Assembly: GCA_021812735.1 (NCBI GenBank)
Contig: JAKAMV010000486.1
Span: 1-7,516 of the forward strand
Direction: 5' to 3'
Source: Chloroflexota bacterium
Lineage (GTDB): Bacteria; Chloroflexota; Limnocylindria; Limnocylindrales; CSP1-4
DNA length: 7,516 nucleotides
Under the pieces are notes generated by a model. That model did no database searches, was not told where the DNA came from, and saw only the letters and a program-made list of their open reading frames with translations. The translations under genes and the position numbers were made by a program. Shown here piece after piece: positions 919 to 7,416 of the stretch. Every line of letters starts with the position of its first letter. The stretch's first letter is position 1.

Positions 919-947
919 GCTCAGCCGGGCCTCAGCCTGCGCTCAGG
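919..947 (+). promoter_or_regulatory. Triple 11-base-phased CTCAG direct repeat (response-regulator-type site)
   Basis: Three 7-base units occur with 4-base spacers: GCTCAGC (919-925), CCTCAGC (930-936) and GCTCAGG (941-947). The CTCAG cores begin at 920, 931 and 942, so the period is exactly one helical turn. Such 7+4 direct repeats are the known binding architecture of OmpR/PhoB-family response regulators, for example Mycobacterium tuberculosis PhoP with TCACAGC-type units. The site lies about 120 bases upstream of the P-type ATPase start. The same architecture recurs at 5225-5253 and 6946-6974. Identity of the regulator is unknown. Confidence 0.7.
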
Positions 948-995
948 TCCCTGGATGACCATCGCGTCGGCCATCCCGGAGATCTACTACGGCGC

Positions 996-1026
996 TGTCG
1001 TTGACGACAAGGTGTCGTTGACGACA
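996..1026. promoter_or_regulatory. Tandem 14-base dyads, probable repressor operator
   Basis: TGTCGTTGACGACA occurs twice, at 996-1009 and 1013-1026, with a 17-base period. The identity extends one further A to 15 bases. Each copy is a dyad TGTCGT-TG-ACGACA. Read across the pair, ACGACA (1004-1009) and TGTCGT (1013-1018) form another dyad with a 3-base spacer. The sites cover a candidate promoter, which favours a repressor. TGTC/GACA half-sites loosely resemble operators of the BlaI/CopY type, but I cannot assign the regulator family from this alone. Confidence 0.7.
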
Positions 1027-1028
1027 AT
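1001..1028 (+). promoter_or_regulatory. Candidate sigma-70-type promoter of the metal ATPase gene
   Basis: TTGACG at 1001-1006 is a good -35 hexamer (5 of 6). It is followed after 16 bases by GACAAT at 1023-1028 (4 of 6 to TATAAT). The -35 lies inside the first operator dyad and the -10 overlaps the end of the second, so occupancy by a dimeric regulator would cover both. A start point near 1035 would give a leader of about 33 bases before the ATPase ATG. The second TTGACG (1018-1023) has no suitable -10. Confidence 0.5.
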
Positions 1029-1067
1029 GAAGCTCCCGAATGACTGGTAGAGGAGCGCAGGCAGGCC

Positions 1068-3545
1068 ATGACGAGCGGTGTCTACGAAGCGGGAGGCCTG
1101 CTGCGCGCGAGCAGCGCGGCGGGCCTTGAGGACTTCCTCCGCCGGCAGCGCGGAGTCCTCGACGCCGACGCGAACCCCGTCTCGCAGACGGTCACGGTGC
1201 ATTACGACGAGTCCGTCCTGTCCGGCGACGCGGTCCGCGGGCTGATCGAGCGCTTCGGCTGCTCGTGCGGTGGCGAGATGGTCCCCTGCCGCATCTGCCG
1301 GGACGAGCAGCCGGCCGTCATGGGCAGCGCCATTCCGGGCGGCCACGTCCACCCGCGCGCCGAGGAACGCGCAGGACACGCCATGGCCGGAATCGGGATG
1401 CCGGCTGCGTCGGCTGCCGATCACGCGGTGGCGATGCCGGCCGCCCCGTCGGCCGGTCACGCCGGCCACGCGATGGCGGGGCACGGCGAGGCGGCGGTCG
1501 GCGAGATGGCCCAGACGGCCCACGCGATGGGCCACGGCGCCGGGATGTCGATGGACGGCATGGTCCGCGACATGCGCAACCGCTTCCTCGTCGCGCTCAT
1601 CCTTGCGTTCCCGGTTACCGCGTACTCGCCGCTGGCGACCGGTCTCGTGGGCGCGCCCCTGCCGACGCCGTTCGGGGTCGATCCCAAGCTGGTGATGTTC
1701 GTCTTCGCCACGCCAGCGGTCCTGTGGAGCGGCCAGATCTTCTTCGTCGGCGCGTGGCGGGCGCTTCGGAACCGGACCCTCGACATGTCGGTGCTGGTGG
1801 CGCTCTCGGTCGGCAGCGCCTACGTCTTCAGCCTGGCCGGCACGTTCCTCTACGCCGGCGACGTCTTCTACGAGGCCTCGATCGACCTGCTCGTGTTCGT
1901 CCTCCTCGGCCACTGGTTCGAGATGCGGGCCCGATCGGGGGCATCGAACGCCATCCGGGCGCTGCTCGACCTCGCGCCACCGAAGGCGACGGTCATCCGG
2001 GACGGCGAGCCGGTCGAGGTCCCGACCTCGGAGGTCGCGGTCGATGACGTCGTCCTCATCCGGCCGGGCGACAAGATCCCGGTCGACGGGATCGTGATGG
2101 ACGGCGCCTCGAGCGTCGACGAGTCGATGCTCACCGGCGAGAGCGTGCCGGTCGAGAAGGCGGTCGGGGCGACCGTCACCGGCGCCTCGATCAACAAGAC
2201 CGGCACGTTCCGGTTCCGTGCGACCAAGGTGGGCGCGGACACGGCGCTGGCCCAGATCGTCAAGCTCGTCCAGCTCGCCCAGAACTCCAAGGCGCCGGGC
2301 CAGCGGCTGGCGGACCGAGCCGCCCAGTGGCTCGTCGCCGCGGCGGTGGTGCTCGGACTCCTGACGTTCTTCGGCTGGCTGACGATCGGCGGCGCGAGCT
2401 TCGTGTTCGCGCTGACGCTTGCGATCACGGTCGTCGTCATCGCCTGCCCCGACGCCCTCGGCCTGGCGACGCCGACCGCGATCATGGTGGGGACGGGCCT
2501 TGGCGCGCTCAACGGGATCCTGTTCAAGAACGCGACCGCGCTCGAGCAGGCCTCGAAGGTCGGCGCGGTGATCTTCGACAAGACCGGCACCCTCACCGTC
2601 GGCCAGCCCCGGGTCGTCGATCTCGTCGCGAGCGCGAACCCGGTCGACGAGGACGAGCTCCTTCGCCTCGCAGCCTCGGCCGAGGCCTCGAGCGAGCACC
2701 CGCTCGGCGCGGCGGTCGTCGACGCCGCCCGGGAGCGCGGCCTGGCGCTGACCGATGCCGCCGACTTCCGGGCGATCCCGGGCCACGGCCTCGAGGCCCG
2801 CGTCGACGGCCGGGCCGTCCTGGTCGGCAACGCCAAGCTGATGCGCGACCGGGAGATCCCGTTCGACAGCCTGGGTGCACGGGCCACCGAGCTCGAGGGG
2901 GCCGGGCGGACGGTCGTGCGGGTCGCCGTCGACGACGAGGCGGCGGGCCTGGTCGCGATCGCGGACGCGGTGCGCCCGGGCGCGAAGGAGGCGATCGGCC
3001 GGCTGCACAACCTCGGCATCGAGGTCGCCATGCTGACGGGCGACAACCGGGCGACCGCAGAGCGGATCGCCGGCGAGCTCGGCCTCGACACCGTCTTCGC
3101 CGAGGTCCTGCCCGGCCAGAAGGCCGACAAGGTCAAGGAGCTCCAGGCGGCCGGCAAGCTCGCGGCCATGGTCGGCGACGGGATCAACGACGCACCGGCG
3201 CTCGCCCAGGCCGACGTCGGGATCGCGATCGGCGCGGGCGCCGACGTGGCGGTCGAGACGGCTGACGTCGTGCTGATGAAGAGCGATCCGCTCGACGTCC
3301 TGGGCGCGATCGCGCTGTCGCGCGCGACGGTCCGGAAGATGCGCCAGAACCTGTTCTGGGCGGTCGGCTACAACACCGTCGCCTTCCCGATCGCGATGGG
3401 CCTCCTCTACCCCTCGATCGGGCTGCTCCTGAGCCCGGAGATCGCCGCCATCAGCATGGCCGGCAGCTCGCTCCTGGTGGCCGTCAACGCCCTGCTCCTG
3501 AAGCGCACCAAGCTCGAGGGGATCCGCCGCTATGGCGCGGCGTGA
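1068..3545 (+). CDS. CopB-like P1B-type heavy-metal (probably copper) ATPase with CPD motif
   Basis: This 825-residue membrane pump uses ATP to move a metal ion, most likely copper outward. Order of parts: HMA-like fold at about residues 10-63, lacking the usual CxxC loop; a Cys cluster C65, C67, C74, C77; a His/Met-rich linker at 93-169 (9 His, 10 Met); transmembrane region from about 173; GHWFEM before the actuator domain; TGES at 356-359; transmembrane CPD at 460-462; DKTGTLT at 504-510; SEHPL at 542-546; GDGIND at 703-708. The late helices carry N-x6-YN and MAGSS...NA signatures typical of Cu-transporting members. The His-rich N-terminus resembles CopB (P1B-3), yet CopB has CPH and CopA has CPC, so CPD is atypical and ion choice is uncertain. 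The ATG at 1068 follows GAGGAG at 1050-1055, a long 12-base spacing. It probably shares a transcript with the YHS gene 115 bases downstream. Confidence 0.95.
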
Positions 3546-3660
3546 GCGCGCTCGGGGCCGCGCCCACCCCGGGCCGCCCTACGAGAGAGTCTCGAAACGC
3601 CGGCCGACGGCCGCCGCATCGGGCCAAGAACCACCCCCAAGATAAGGAGGCACACCTGCC

Positions 3661-3855
3661 ATGGCTGACACCGTCAAGGACCCGGTCTGCGGCATGGACA
3701 TCCGCATCGAGGATGCGGCCGCAACCGAGGTCCACGAGGGACGAACCTTCCACTTCTGCAGCAAGGGCTGCCACCAGGCCTTCGTCGGCGACCCCCATCG
3801 CTACGGCCACCCGGGCACAGAGCACGGCGGCCACGAAGGCCACGGCCACCACTGA
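3661..3855 (+). CDS. YHS-domain small metal-binding protein with His-rich tail
   Basis: This is a 64-residue soluble protein. The YHS domain fills residues 5-48: DPVCGM near the start, then FHFCSKGCHQAF and the closing DPHRY. The three cysteines (in VCGM and FCSKGC) match the family's metal-binding pattern. YHS domains are often found in or beside copper and other heavy-metal ATPases and are thought to bind the ion. The last 15 residues are a His/Gly tail with six His, which would add further metal sites. AAGGAGG at 3644-3650 sits 10 bases before the ATG. The gene follows the ATPase on the same strand after 115 bases with no strong terminator between, so co-transcription is likely. A short CGAGA/TCTCG dyad at 3582-3594 is the only structure in that gap. 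A role as metal buffer or donor to the pump is inference. Confidence 0.88.
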   Translation: MADTVKDPVCGMDIRIEDAAATEVHEGRTFHFCSKGCHQAFVGDPHRYGHPGTEHGGHEGHGHH

Positions 3856-3917
3856 TCCCGAGCCCGCGGGCGCGGAGGCTCATCGCCCGAGCGCCCGCAC
3901 GCATCCGCTGCAGTGGC

Positions 3918-3945
3918 GGCATCACACGCGGCCGCGTGTGATGCC
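3918..3945. terminator. Perfect 28-bp palindrome between convergent genes, bidirectional terminator candidate
   Basis: Bases 3918-3945 read the same on both strands over 28 bp. The centre is GCGGCCGC (3928-3935) and the arms are GGCATCACAC and GTGTGATGCC. In RNA from either strand it would fold to a 12-bp stem with a GGCC loop. It lies 62 bases after the YHS stop and 165 bases beyond the end of the opposing permease gene, a fitting place for a two-way terminator. There is no flanking T- or A-tract, and a DNA-binding role is also possible. Confidence 0.55.
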
Positions 3946-4005
3946 CACCCGCCCTCGGCACTCCGCCCCGGTCACGTCCTCCGGGTTCGCCGCCCTTGTG
4001 GACCC

Positions 4006-4025
4006 GCCGCCGGACCCGCGGCGGC
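4006..4025 (-). terminator. Secondary hairpin downstream of the permease gene
   Basis: GCCGCCG (4006-4012) pairs exactly with CGGCGGC (4019-4025) across a 6-base loop. It lies about 86 bases past the stop of the minus-strand permease and could stop or stabilise that transcript. GC-rich 7-bp stems are common by chance in this composition, so support is weak. Confidence 0.3.
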
Positions 4026-4110
4026 CTAGCGACCCGTCCGCGGGACGACGTCGTCGCCTGAGGACGATCGCCGGGGTCGGCGGGGGCCGTCGAGCGCGCC
4101 CCTAGGCGTC

Positions 4111-5142
4111 CTACGACCGGCCCCGCGGCTCGCGAAGCGACACGAGCGCGACGCCTCCGAGGAGCGCTGCGGCCCCGGCGAGCTCGGCAGGCTCGAGCCG
4201 ATTGCCGGCGAGGATCCCGGAGACGACGCCAACCACCGGGACCAGGAACAGCGACGTCCCCAGCGCCGTGAGCGAGGCGCGGCCCAGCAGCCAGAACCAG
4301 ACCGCGTAGGCGAGGCCCGTGCCGAGGACGCCCAGGACGAGCAGCGAGGCGATGGTTGCCGGCGGCCAGGACACGTTGCCCCACGGCTCCAGCCTCGCGC
4401 TCGCCGAGACGAGCATCAGCCCGCCAAGCAGGAGCTGGGCGCTCGCCGTCGCCGGCACGTCGATGGTCGAGCCCAGCCGACGCATGACCACCGTGCCCGC
4501 GGCCGGCGCTGCAGCTGCCAGGAGCGACAGGGCGACGCCATCGATGCTCGTCGAGCCTGAAGCCGTCGACGCCACCAGCACCAGGCCGGCCATGGCAACG
4601 CACAACCCGATGAGAGTTCGGGCCGGCGCCCGCTCGCCGAACAGGGCCCAGGCTGCGGCCGAGAGGAGGACTGGCTGGCTGCCGGACAGGGTTGACGCGA
4701 CAGCCGCCACTGACTGCCCGGCGGCGAGGTACATGGCCCCGAACGCCAGCGCCACGTTCGTCGCCGCCAGCGTCGCGACGGTCCGCAGCGGGGGCACGCC
4801 GCACGGCCGGCCAGACCGGTCGGCATGTCGTGCGCTCGCCCGACCGCGCCGCGCACTCCACCGGGTCAGCGCGATCCAGACGCCCAGGACCGCCCCGCCG
4901 ATCAGGGCCCGCAGCCCTGCGAGGAGGAGGGGCGTCGCGCTGGGCAGGGACGCCTGGATGAGCACATAGCAGAGTCCCCAGATGGCCGCCACGAGGGCGG
5001 CCAGGCCGGACGGCAGCCGGCTCACGCGCCGAGGCGGCCGCGCCGGGCGAGCCGTCGGTTCCCACTCTGCAGCCGCACTTGGGGTGATGGCGTGCTGAGC
5101 GACGCCCAACGTGGAGCCCAGGCGCACGTATCGGCCCTTCAC
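4111..5142 (-). CDS. EamA/DMT-superfamily permease
   Basis: This integral membrane protein has two EamA repeats and about ten hydrophobic helices, running from GLAALVAAIWG near residue 46 to LLGGVALVSL near the C-terminus. The second repeat shows the usual pattern: GTGLAYAVWFWLLG, a Thr/Ser-Leu-Phe-Leu-Pro helix, then RLEPAELAGAAALLGG. The drug/metabolite transporter superfamily exports or takes up small metabolites; the substrate cannot be read from sequence. The longest frame gives 343 residues from a GTG at 5142, but the first 39 residues are basic, unlike a transporter segment, and have no clear ribosome binding site. The GTG at 5025-5023 would give 304 residues, closer to the usual length of about 300, though it too lacks a clear site. 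The gene is transcribed against the YHS gene and away from the DUF5676-like gene, and may be unrelated to the metal genes. Confidence 0.88.
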   Translation of the reverse strand: MKGRYVRLGSTLGVAQHAITPSAAAEWEPTARPARPPRRVSRLPSGLAALVAAIWGLCYVLIQASLPSATPLLLAGLRALIGGAVLGVWIALTRWSARRGRASARHADRSGRPCGVPPLRTVATLAATNVALAFGAMYLAAGQSVAAVASTLSGSQPVLLSAAAWALFGERAPARTLIGLCVAMAGLVLVASTASGSTSIDGVALSLLAAAAPAAGTVVMRRLGSTIDVPATASAQLLLGGLMLVSASARLEPWGNVSWPPATIASLLVLGVLGTGLAYAVWFWLLGRASLTALGTSLFLVPVVGVVSGILAGNRLEPAELAGAAALLGGVALVSLREPRGRS

Positions 5143-5224
5143 GCGTGCAGCATCGGTCCGTGGCCGGAGGGACAGGTGAGCTACGCCTGAGAGGCCGGGT
5201 TGCGCACGGCCATGGCTCCCCCGT

Positions 5225-5253
5225 TCTCAGCAGGACCTCAGCGTGGGTTCACC
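5225..5253 (+). promoter_or_regulatory. Second triple 11-base-phased direct repeat
   Basis: Units TCTCAGC (5225-5231), CCTCAGC (5236-5242) and GTTCACC (5247-5253) are separated by 4 bases each; the cores start at 5226, 5237 and 5248, exactly 11 apart. Two units are nearly identical to those at 919-947, and the third matches the GTTCACC unit known for the Streptomyces PHO box. The site lies 95 bases upstream of the DUF5676-like gene, in the divergent gap with the permease. A TAACTC at 5260-5265 could act as a weak -10. Binding of an OmpR/PhoB-type regulator is inferred. Confidence 0.68.
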
Positions 5254-5285
5254 GCCGGCTAACTCGAACGAGCGACGCTCTCAAC

Positions 5286-5324
5286 CGTGGATGGCCCCGG
5301 GCGGCTGCCCGGCCGTCATCCACG
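5286..5324 (+). promoter_or_regulatory. Long leader hairpin upstream of the DUF5676-like gene
   Basis: CGTGGATG (5286-5293) pairs with CATCCACG (5317-5324), and inside it CCGGGC (5297-5302) pairs with GCCCGG (5307-5312) around a GGCT loop. The two stems are separated by a small internal loop. The structure ends 10 bases before AGGAGG (5335-5340). In the mRNA it would form a stable 5' leader stem that could protect the message or influence initiation. Terminator or attenuator activity is possible but there is no T-tract. Confidence 0.45.
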
Positions 5325-5348
5325 CCAGCACCGCAGGAGGCAGCACAC

Positions 5349-5618
5349 ATGAACCGCCTGCCGTTCGCGCCGCTCGCGGCGGCAATCGTCGCCGTCGGCG
5401 AGGTCGCCTACCTCCTCTGCCTGGCGTCCGGAGCGATCTGGCCCGACGTGTTCGGGATGTGGCGCTCGTTCCCGACGCTCTTCCCGGGCTTCACCTGGCT
5501 CGATCCGGTCAGCGTGGTCCTCGGCCTCGTCGAGATGGCCCTGTACGGCCTCGCCGTGGCCGCGGTCGCGGCCGCGGCCTGGAGCCTCGTCGTCGACCGC
5601 CCGGCGAGAACCGCCTGA
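5349..5618 (+). CDS. Small two-helix membrane protein, DUF5676-like
   Basis: This 89-residue protein has two predicted membrane helices, about residues 9-30 and 53-82. Between them lies a short loop with PTLFPGFTWLDP and Gly/Trp landmarks. The helix-loop pattern (FPG(F/Y), then a Pro and a second helix with G-x2-E and a late Trp) resembles DUF5676 proteins, which are small membrane proteins often seen next to copper-transporting ATPases. This assignment is from pattern memory, not a search. The ATG at 5349 follows AGGAGG (5335-5340) with 8 bases between, an excellent site. The stop is only 7 bases before the flavoprotein start, so the two are almost certainly co-transcribed and probably translationally linked. 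No catalytic residues are evident. A role as membrane partner of the flavoprotein or as a metal-stress membrane protein is inference. Confidence 0.8.
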   Translation: MNRLPFAPLAAAIVAVGEVAYLLCLASGAIWPDVFGMWRSFPTLFPGFTWLDPVSVVLGLVEMALYGLAVAAVAAAAWSLVVDRPARTA

Positions 5619-5625
5619 CACGCCC

Positions 5626-6831
5626 ATGTCGCGACCAAGGGTCGCCGTCATCGGGGCCGGACCGGCCGGCAGCACCGCCGCCCGGCTCCTCGCCGAGCGC
5701 GGCGCCGACGTCACCCTCTTCGAGGCCCGCCGCCTGCCGCGCCCCAAGGTGTGCGGCGGCGGCCTGACCCCGAAGGCCCAGCGGCTCGTCCCGCGCGAGG
5801 CGCTCGAGGTGGTCGAGCGCCGGATCGACCGGGTGGAGCTCCGGACGCCCCACCTCGGATCGTTCCGCATCGACGCGCCCGAGGCGACGATCGCGATGGT
5901 CGAGCGGACACGGTTCGACCTCGCCCTGGTCGAGGCCACGGCGCGCGCCGGGGCCGAGGTCCGGGATGCGTCGCCGGTGCATGACATCGTCGAAGACGAG
6001 ACCGGCGTGGCGATCCGAACGGCGGCCGACCGGTTCGCGGCGGATGCCGCGGTCGTCGCCGACGGCGAACCGAGCGGCGTGTCCCGCCGGCTAGGCCTCG
6101 GTGGCTCAGCGCACCGGCTCGCCCTGGCGCTCGAGGTCGACCTGCCGTTCTCCTCGGTCGTCGCGCCCGATACGGCTGTGCTGGCCTTCGGTCTGCGGGG
6201 CGGCTACGGCTGGTACTTCCCGAAGGGCGACCATGCCAGCGTCGGCGTGGGCTCGTATCGCACCTCCGAGCATCGCCGGCTGCGAGGCGATCTGGCTCGC
6301 CTCGCCCTCGGTCTCGGCCTCGATGTCAGCGCTGGGCGCGTGCGCGGGCACTGGATCCCCCAGGGGCTCCGCACAGGCCCGCTCGCCTCGGACCGGGTCG
6401 TCCTGGCGGGCGACGCGGCCGCGACGGCCGATGCCCTGTTCGGCGAGGGGATCGCGTACGCGCTCCTGTCTGGGATCGCGGCGGCCCAGTCCGTCGGCGA
6501 CTGGGCCGACGGCGCGATCGGCTCGCTCCGCGACCACGACCGTCGGCTGCGCCTCGTGATGTCCCCGTCGCTCGACCGCCTCCGCATGGTCGCGCTCGCA
6601 GCTGAGGCGTCCATCACCTTGGCGCTCCTCGGCGTGCGGCTGAGCCACGGCGTGCGTGAGCGGGCGATCGACGCCATCGCCGGGCGGTCGGCGCCGTTCG
6701 CCATCGACGGCCGGTGCGAGCTCGCTTGTGCCTGTGGGCTGCATGCCGCCGAGCTCGCGCCGCGGGCGCTGTTCGTCGAACCGGCGGGCTGTGATCGCTG
6801 CACATGGTGCCTGGCGGCGTGCGCCGTCTGA
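5626..6831 (+). CDS. FAD-dependent oxidoreductase, geranylgeranyl reductase family, with C-terminal 4-Cys motif
   Basis: This 401-residue flavoprotein belongs to the geranylgeranyl reductase / FixC-like group (COG0644 type). The N-terminal Rossmann motif VIGAGPAGS (residues 8-16) is followed by an acidic E33 that would bind the ADP ribose. The family's KVCGGGL motif is at 41-47, and the second FAD motif VVLAGDAAATADALFGEG has its GD at 262-263. Members reduce isoprenoid double bonds or pass electrons to quinones; the substrate here is unknown. The last 40 residues are unusual: C364, C368 and C370, then C389-x2-C392-x2-C395-x3-C399, the spacing of a [4Fe-4S] ferredoxin motif, two residues from the C-terminus. 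The motif is in frame with no sign of frameshift. The ATG at 5626 has no clear ribosome binding site and likely relies on coupling to the upstream gene. A strong hairpin 55 bases after the stop probably ends the operon. Confidence 0.88.
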   Translation: MSRPRVAVIGAGPAGSTAARLLAERGADVTLFEARRLPRPKVCGGGLTPKAQRLVPREALEVVERRIDRVELRTPHLGSFRIDAPEATIAMVERTRFDLALVEATARAGAEVRDASPVHDIVEDETGVAIRTAADRFAADAAVVADGEPSGVSRRLGLGGSAHRLALALEVDLPFSSVVAPDTAVLAFGLRGGYGWYFPKGDHASVGVGSYRTSEHRRLRGDLARLALGLGLDVSAGRVRGHWIPQGLRTGPLASDRVVLAGDAAATADALFGEGIAYALLSGIAAAQSVGDWADGAIGSLRDHDRRLRLVMSPSLDRLRMVALAAEASITLALLGVRLSHGVRERAIDAIAGRSAPFAIDGRCELACACGLHAAELAPRALFVEPAGCDRCTWCLAACAV

Positions 6832-6885
6832 CGCCTCGGCGGCGCGCCGGACCAGCTCCCGACCGTGCCGGCCAGCTGATCCGAG

Positions 6886-6908
6886 CCGACGCGGAGCTCC
6901 CGCGTCGG
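6886..6908 (+). terminator. Hairpin terminator candidate after the flavoprotein gene
   Basis: CCGACGCGG (6886-6894) pairs perfectly with CCGCGTCGG (6900-6908) around a 5-base loop, AGCTC. It lies 55 bases after the stop at 6831. A second, imperfect stem at 6848-6883 (CGGACCAGCT against AGCTGATCCG, one mismatch) precedes it. No T-tract follows. It separates the flavoprotein operon from the next repeat-controlled unit. Confidence 0.55.
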
Positions 6909-6945
6909 GCGGAGGCAGGCGGGCGGTGCCGAGTGGGACCGGAAG

Positions 6946-6974
6946 TCTCATCCACGGCTCACTCTGGATTCATC
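6946..6974 (+). promoter_or_regulatory. Third triple 11-base-phased direct repeat
   Basis: Units TCTCATC (6946-6952), GCTCACT (6957-6963) and ATTCATC (6968-6974) have 4-base spacers, with TCA cores exactly 11 bases apart. They are more divergent than the copies at 919-947 and 5225-5253 but keep the same YTCA core, phase and number of units. The site follows the flavoprotein terminator and would control the small genes ending at 7416. A further TTCAT at 6993-6997 is out of phase. Confidence 0.55.
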
Positions 6975-7027
6975 GGCGGCGGCCAGCGTCGGTTCATGAT
7001 CAGCATCGCTGGCGAACGCTGAACCCG

Positions 7028-7177
7028 ATGGGCTCGATTCGCGCCGCCATGAGCGCAAGCGCCGTCGTCGGCCTGGCTACCGGCGGCATGACGCCTCCAG
7101 CAGCAACGGGGGTGACGGGTGCGACCGGATCGGCCGTCCCCACGCGCTCGAGCACCGGCATGGGAGGAGGCTCATGA
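7028..7177 (+). CDS. Doubtful 49-residue Gly/Ala/Thr-rich small ORF
   Basis: ATG at 7028 opens a frame of 49 residues ending in TGA at 7175-7177, which overlaps the next ATG as ATGA, the classic sign of translational coupling. Against it: no ribosome binding site precedes 7028 (nor the in-frame ATG at 7049), about a quarter of codons end in A or T, clearly more than in neighbouring genes, and no domain is recognisable. The N-terminal third is mildly hydrophobic, the rest Gly/Thr/Ser/Ala. It may be a small membrane-linked peptide, or just the leader of the next gene. Confidence 0.22.
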   Translation: MGSIRAAMSASAVVGLATGGMTPPAATGVTGATGSAVPTRSSTGMGGGS

Positions 7178-7416
7178 CCCGGGAGCACCGACCGGTCCGG
7201 AGGTTCCGCGCCCACGTCCCGGTCAGCACCGACGCGCGGACGAGTGACCGCCGATACGAGCGCCTGCTCGAGGCCCACCCGGGCATCCACCGGGCGGTGG
7301 CCGCAAGGGAGGGACGCCTGCTCATCATCGACTACGACCCGCTCGTCCTCGGGCTCGCCGACCTCGCCGCGATCGTCAGGCTCGGTGGAGTCCCGGTCGC
7401 GCCCGGTGACGGCTGA
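7174..7416 (+). CDS. Small Cys-less protein with HMA-like pattern
   Basis: This 80-residue soluble protein has a basic first 27 residues, then a segment at about 28-75 with the beta-alpha-beta-beta-alpha-beta pattern of heavy-metal-associated (HMA) domains. It reads YERLLEAHPGIHRAV, then RLLIIDYDP, then LADLAAIVRLGGVPV. It lines up in pattern with residues 20-64 of the ATPase in this window, including the 'YD' after the third strand and 'L..I...G' in the second helix. It has no cysteine, so the usual CxxC metal site is absent; His35 and His39 are the only candidate ligands in that region. The GGAGGAGG at 7163-7170 is a strong ribosome binding site just before ATG 7174. Similar Cys-less HMA-like proteins occur near metal ATPases, but the function is not known. 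The fold is inferred from pattern only. Confidence 0.72.
   Translation: MTREHRPVRRFRAHVPVSTDARTSDRRYERLLEAHPGIHRAVAAREGRLLIIDYDPLVLGLADLAAIVRLGGVPVAPGDG

Follow-up and report, generated by a model that had tools for sequence, protein, structure and literature searches.

Phased YTCA direct repeats in a Chloroflexota genome as probable operators of a PhoP-related response regulator with a copper-rich target set

Introduction

The nearest precedents for the repeats described here are CopRS of Corynebacterium glutamicum in function, PhoP of Mycobacterium tuberculosis in site and recognition helix, and PhoB of Escherichia coli in promoter geometry. CopR/CopS, a two-component system for copper, switches on its own genes together with those of a multicopper oxidase and a Cu ATPase. 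When reverse-complemented, its site TGAAGATTTnnTGAAGATTT reads YTCA-n7-YTCA and has the same 11-bp period as the repeats here; in the accessible portion of the report it comprises two units at one genomic place, far from the mapped cg3286 start (PMC3140484). PhoP reads direct 7-bp TCACAGC repeats with a 4-bp spacer, according to the excerpted account (PMC4832192). The pho box of PhoB is likewise built of 11-nt direct repeats and shares with the sites here the spacing between last unit and -10 element, whereas its motif is CTGTCAT and the genes concerned, in the part of the source at hand, are phosphate genes (PMC4415409). AgrR, CopR and PcoR resemble the present case in belonging to the OmpR family and having metal-resistance targets, and AgrR also in having a site at its own promoter and a proposed type II activation; their core site, as given in the available sections, is an inverted repeat (6-4-6), to which some promoters add a direct repeat (PMC7380067).

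We analysed a 7,516-nt stretch of DNA from a Chloroflexota bacterium (GenBank assembly GCA_021812735.1, contig JAKAMV010000486.1), referred to throughout as the window. An original prediction, made from the letters of the window, had taken its phased YTCA repeats for OmpR/PhoB-type sites of one shared response-regulator regulon. In contrast to what the accessible CopRS report describes, the sites here have at least three units, stand at many promoters and keep a fixed distance from the -10 (PMC3140484), and they are plain direct 11-bp repeats where the available account of CopR, PcoR and AgrR gives an inverted-repeat operator (PMC7380067). Genome-level evidence was drawn from relatives, the nearest of which, G001, shares 42% of sampled 31-mers with the window. 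The regulator's own site, the controls and the placement of sites in relatives support the predicted regulon at the level of sequence, and with a probability of roughly 0.8 we read the repeats as operators of a single PhoP-related OmpR/PhoB-family regulator that would activate a copper-rich gene set.

Results

A pattern scan of the window found exact matches to YTCA-n7-YTCA-n7-YTCA starting at 920, 5226 and 6947, all on the plus strand, just where 11-bp-phased sites had been proposed (919, 5225 and 6946). Allowing up to one mismatch gave five matches, compared with a mean of 0.03 and a maximum of 1 in 200 dinucleotide shuffles. One of the two non-exact matches is a shifted reading of the array at 5225; the other is a minus-strand site (5191-5166) directed towards an EamA gene, which the original prediction had overlooked and which raises the number of promoters in the window from three to four. 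Its statement that there are always three units is right for 919 and 6946 and wrong for 5225, where four are found (CTCA 5226, CTCA 5237, TTCA 5248 and CTAA 5259). With at least two units at one fixed period (7 bp plus 4 bp), the repeats have the form of OmpR/PhoB-family direct-repeat operators.

The first operator (919..948, plus strand; CTCAGCC, CTCAGCC, CTCAGGT), an exact match with a matrix score of 29.3, lies upstream of a gene (1068..3545, plus strand) whose earlier label of ATPase can be narrowed to heavy-metal/copper P1B ATPase (TIGR01511, 603 bits, cut-off 397), with the membrane motif CPD instead of CPC. Its predicted -10 (957..962, plus strand) places A958 at +13 and T962 at +17, with a predicted start near 969. 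The gene for a YHS-domain small protein (3661..3855, plus strand; PF04945) follows downstream and is probably carried on the ATPase transcript. The ATPase leader (996-1026) also holds two tandem palindromes, TGTCGTTGACGACA, spaced 17 bp, possibly a second operator. As a second operator of the whole regulon the palindrome TGTCGTnnACGACA was rejected: G001 has only the pair in the ATPase leader, and matches of any kind turn up in 15 of 61 genomes.

The second operator is the four-unit array (5225..5264, plus strand), upstream of genes for an 89-aa protein (5349..5618, plus strand), which has no family match, is hydrophobic by eye and is probably a membrane protein, and for an FAD-dependent oxidoreductase (5626..6831, plus strand). 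The latter, previously called a flavoprotein, belongs to the geranylgeranyl reductase family (TIGR02032, 186.8 bits, above the cut-off of 158.8). Read in the register first proposed (units 1-3), this site is without a -10; one unit downstream (units 2-4) a predicted -10 (5274..5279, plus strand; A5275, T5279) is in phase, with a start predicted near 5286, and its bases are identical in G001.

The third operator (5166..5191, minus strand; CTCA 5191-5188, CTCA 5180-5177, CTCC 5169-5166) is the one-mismatch site, and its CTCC unit is CTCA in G001, which makes it an exact match there. The predicted -10 (5149..5154, minus strand; A5153, T5149) puts the predicted start at 5142, exactly where the GTG of the EamA-family transporter gene (4111..5142, minus strand; PF00892) begins, so that this transcript would be leaderless.

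The fourth operator (6946..6975, plus strand; CTCATCC, CTCACTC, TTCATCG) stands upstream of a gene for an 80-aa protein (7174..7416, plus strand) with no family match; its predicted -10 spans 6984..6989 on the plus strand (A6985, T6989). The predicted transcription start of this third plus-strand promoter, 6996, is exactly the A of the ATG of an 8-codon frame (6996-7022), which is kept in G001 with one residue changed. A 49-aa frame at 7028-7177 was discarded as a gene candidate, a 1-base gap in G001 breaking the frame. The names DUF5676-like and HMA-like, formerly given to the 89-aa and 80-aa proteins, are unsupported because, at the thresholds applied, neither protein matches any Pfam or NCBIfam model.

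All four window promoters are present in G001, which has 29 exact triple-site matches and none to the reversed-pattern control. Two of its roughly 100 contigs, C17 and C72, hold 23 of the 29, and four matches on contig C96 overlap inside a tandem repeat. A matrix built from the 23 C17/C72 sites scored 14 or more at 55 positions on these two contigs (45 after merging overlaps), against 2 in the reversed sequence. When the window and 20 other stretches were added to C17 and C72, 144 places reached this score, 127 of them no more than 400 bp from the start of a gene on the same strand.

Placement was assessed for 140 sites, the window's four being excluded, with crude gene calls based on GC frame. 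Intergenic positions with a co-directional next gene account for 51% of sites and 7.6% of random positions, and those with an opposed next gene for 15% and 7.6%. For a further 26% the position is within the first 40% of a frame on the same strand (17% of random positions), partly because start calls are over-long. Only 2.9% fall inside opposite-strand genes, where 42% of random positions do. Equal frequency in coding or random places, named beforehand as the outcome that would speak against the prediction, is thus contradicted both here and by the 29 matches against none in the reversed control.

Downstream of the repeats we found a second constant element. Offsets were counted from the A of the third YTCA, and positions +13 and +17 fall outside the matrix. 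Among the 121 sites scoring at least 18 with full flanks, A occupies +13 in 96 and T occupies +17 in 107. Over all 144 sites, A-N3-T stands at +13 in 104 and at other offsets in 0-7, except for +24, one unit further on, with 16, as expected from four-unit arrays; 40 sites are without A+13/T+17 in the first register. An in-phase A-N3-T is present at all four window promoters. A sigma-70-type -10 has its two key bases, A and T, at this spacing, so transcription is predicted to start near +24. ATG or GTG triplets cluster at +24 and +25, occurring at 40 of the 104 sites with an in-phase -10 (frame not checked for each), and many of the transcripts are therefore probably leaderless. The -10 has no conserved T at -12 (T in 10 of 121 sites). 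In the K-12 record of E. coli phoA, A and T occur at the same +13 and +17 after the last TGTCA, a pair that we take to be the phoA -10. The fixed distance from last unit to -10 (104 of 144 sites) thus equals that of a PhoB-type promoter, and the repeats seem to stand in for the -35 box, as PhoB sites do.

A candidate regulator is encoded in G001 on C72 (53570-54316), where a site precedes the called start of an OmpR-type regulator gene by 35 bp and a histidine kinase gene (by eye) comes after it; the kinase of its paralogue on C17 (125576-126331) matches Pfam HisKA/HATPase. The original prediction had proposed to look for a response regulator and sensor kinase whose own promoter carries this repeat, and such a pair was thus found near related loci in relatives. 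A search of 101 family genomes, with at most 29 candidates scored per genome, detected an orthologue in 22 (27 copies, 79-100% identity). The copy in a named MAG, Chloroflexi bacterium (L078), is 82% identical. A site scoring at least 12 lies within about 400 bp of 23 of the 27 copies, 22 of them scoring at least 14 and L190 13.5; on the reversed control 2 of 27 reach 12 and none reaches 15. Since copy L195 is cut by a contig end, 26 copies are assessable, 23 with a site at their own promoter; the other three (G012, G019 and G020) are preceded by a multicopper oxidase gene that has the site at its promoter, some 1.25 kb upstream. G001 contributes two of the 27 copies; its C72 promoter site helped build the matrix, and its C17 promoter site did not. 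All 23 self-sites have an in-phase -10, in L201 and L202 one unit further on.

The regulator scores below cut-off against the heavy-metal response regulator model TIGR01387 (234.2 bits, cut-off 279.2), the PhoB model TIGR02154 (226.2, cut-off 296.2) and its best NCBIfam model, NblR (243, cut-off 300), and the kinase's best NCBIfam match is a heavy-metal family, also below cut-off (196 bits, cut-off 293). The closest solved relative of the regulator is M. tuberculosis PhoP (PDB 5ed4, 3r0j). The first-unit consensus here, TCTCAGC, matches the PhoP unit TCACAGC in 7-bp direct repeats with a 4-bp spacer and differs in the third base, T here and A in PhoP (excerpts of PMC4832192). All 26 copies compared (L213 left out) share the recognition helix N[IV]LEVY[VI]RYLR. 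The Asn, Glu and two Tyr that contact bases in PhoP are retained, and position 213 keeps the Val of PhoP in 25 copies and has Ile in one, so that of the six base-contacting helix residues 4 are identical in the G001 C72 copy and 5 in the 25 Val213 copies; Ser216, which in the accessible PhoP account helps to hold a water contacting the third base of the unit, is Val here (PMC4832192). We infer that the change from Ser216 to Val may be tied to the third-base change from A to T. The target set of PhoP differs from the targets here.

Targets were grouped by what lies downstream of sites in the fetched stretches, counting an in-phase -10 in either register. Such a -10 is present at every site before the regulator (10/10), P1B ATPases (9/9), YHS proteins (8/8), FtsX/MacB permeases (6/6), TRASH-like proteins (6/6; Pfam match below cut-off), lipoproteins assigned by eye (6/6), multicopper oxidases (5/5) and HMA proteins (3/3), at 3 of 6 before the cupredoxin group and at 2 of 10 before cytochrome b. 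Some targets, labelled by eye as oleate-hydratase-like or as peptidases, are not metal genes. Some site-driven genes look like lipoproteins, and two prolipoprotein diacylglyceryl transferase-like genes (by eye; G001 C17, 77540-78355 and 139307-140350) flank the site-rich part.

As with CopRS, the predicted targets include the regulator's own gene, a multicopper oxidase and a Cu ATPase. The bias towards copper proteins, together with the oxidase-regulator operons, suggests copper, or a related metal or redox stress, as the signal, but both regulator and kinase score too low for the heavy-metal models. It is possible, though we lean against it, that the regulon is real and answers instead to envelope or redox stress or to a metal other than copper, as the HtpX-like and M23-like peptidases, DoxX and PspA-like proteins (by eye) and FtsX permeases among targets or neighbours would fit. 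The window ATPase points the same way, with CPD (2445-2453) where copper pumps usually carry CPC. In a survey of nine P1B ATPases downstream of sites (window, G001 C17 and C72, L218, L223 and L228), six have CPD, with CSC or CAC and an N-terminal CxxC, and three have CPC; in a literature search, no paper among the matches listed contained 'CPD motif'. Against a signal other than copper, the recurrent targets are Cu ATPases, cupredoxins, multicopper oxidases, YHS, TRASH-like and HMA proteins, the regulator gene lies directly behind the multicopper oxidase gene in three genera, and the kinase's nearest model, below its cut-off, is of the heavy-metal family.

Sites and regulator occur together across the family. 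The 22 genomes with the regulator have a median of 9.5 exact triple sites (total 237, reversed control 8) and the 79 without it a median of 1 (total 120, reversed control 33), with a similar reversed control in both groups; the genomes are drafts, mostly incomplete. Because they are related to one another, p-values overstate independence. A composite pattern of repeats plus -10 gave 209 matches in 37 of the 101 genomes against 1 reversed match. In G001, 23 of 24 composite sites fall on 2 of the roughly 100 contigs.

Composite sites occur in 21 of the 22 genomes with the regulator and also, with 37 matches, in 16 of the 79 without a detected orthologue, and these 16 count against an exclusive link between regulator and site; several of them are incomplete, while G059 and G004 are 90-92% complete. 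Phylum-wide, 135 of 301 genomes have a composite and 24 a reversed-control match, and YTCA-n7-YTCA pairs precede 10 of 79 named regulator relatives (including L078, a probable family member) against 1 of 79 in the control, so the layout is wider than this regulator. With the matrix, upstream of the 79 named relatives only L078 and L132 reach 15 (reversed 0), and 2 against 1 reach 12. In L132 (Paenibacillus cellulosilyticus, another phylum; about 9840-9900) a distant regulator has three YTCA units and a same-register -10 at its own promoter.

Both the regulator-less genomes and the pairs before other regulators across phyla would fit a reading in which another factor, whether a different OmpR-type regulator or an alternative sigma factor, binds the sites and the candidate is merely one of its targets. 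We consider this unlikely. G001 encodes 30 PF00486 proteins; within 1 kb ahead of the domain, or a shorter span at contig ends, a site scoring at least 14 is confined to the two paralogues, and the runner-up scores 10.4. All 26 assessable regulator copies stand under a site, directly or through the operon, and both the site and the helix are close to those of M. tuberculosis PhoP.

Discussion

Taken together, these observations argue for control of the repeats by one relative of M. tuberculosis PhoP, whose gene lies at another place in the genome together with that of its sensor kinase. Binding, activation and oligomer state are proposed here from sequence features. Phosphorylated regulator molecules would line up head to tail, each on one 11-bp unit, the gene-proximal unit ending about 11-12 bp before the -10 element; the bound regulator would take the place of the -35 box, bringing RNA polymerase to a minimal -10 (NANNNT). 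It would thereby activate its own gene and a scattered set rich in copper proteins.

Repression in place of activation is very unlikely, even though OmpR-family regulators can do either, as MtrA and CzcR illustrate in the available part of PMC7380067: the geometry equals that of an activated PhoB promoter, and a -10 without conserved T-12 is what an activator-dependent promoter is expected to have. A few genome matches are simple tandem repeats (G001 C96, G045 C71), but an origin of the sites in chance or tandem-repeat DNA can be dismissed in view of the shuffle and reversed-pattern controls, which already refute it for the window sites.

Activation by a PhoP-related regulator is a switch of known type; this regulator and its target set appear undescribed, as far as we searched, and a literature search for a copper response-regulator regulon of Chloroflexota found none among the matches listed. 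Tentatively, and at somewhat less than even odds, the finding may point to an accessory metal/redox region with its own transcription code, in which one regulator and tens of like-built promoters move together. The promoters would then share a single build of at least three 11-bp units, 12 bp, A-N3-T and, often, a leaderless start codon, and the presence of the regulator would predict the whole promoter set.

For this group of Chloroflexota, the repeats would provide a readable promoter code that marks the operator, the -10 and often the starts of transcription and translation. Many small metal proteins and proteins of unknown role, two of them in the window and without a family match, would also gain a probable regulator, and the repeats suggest a route by which copper genes came under a PhoP-like recognition helix.
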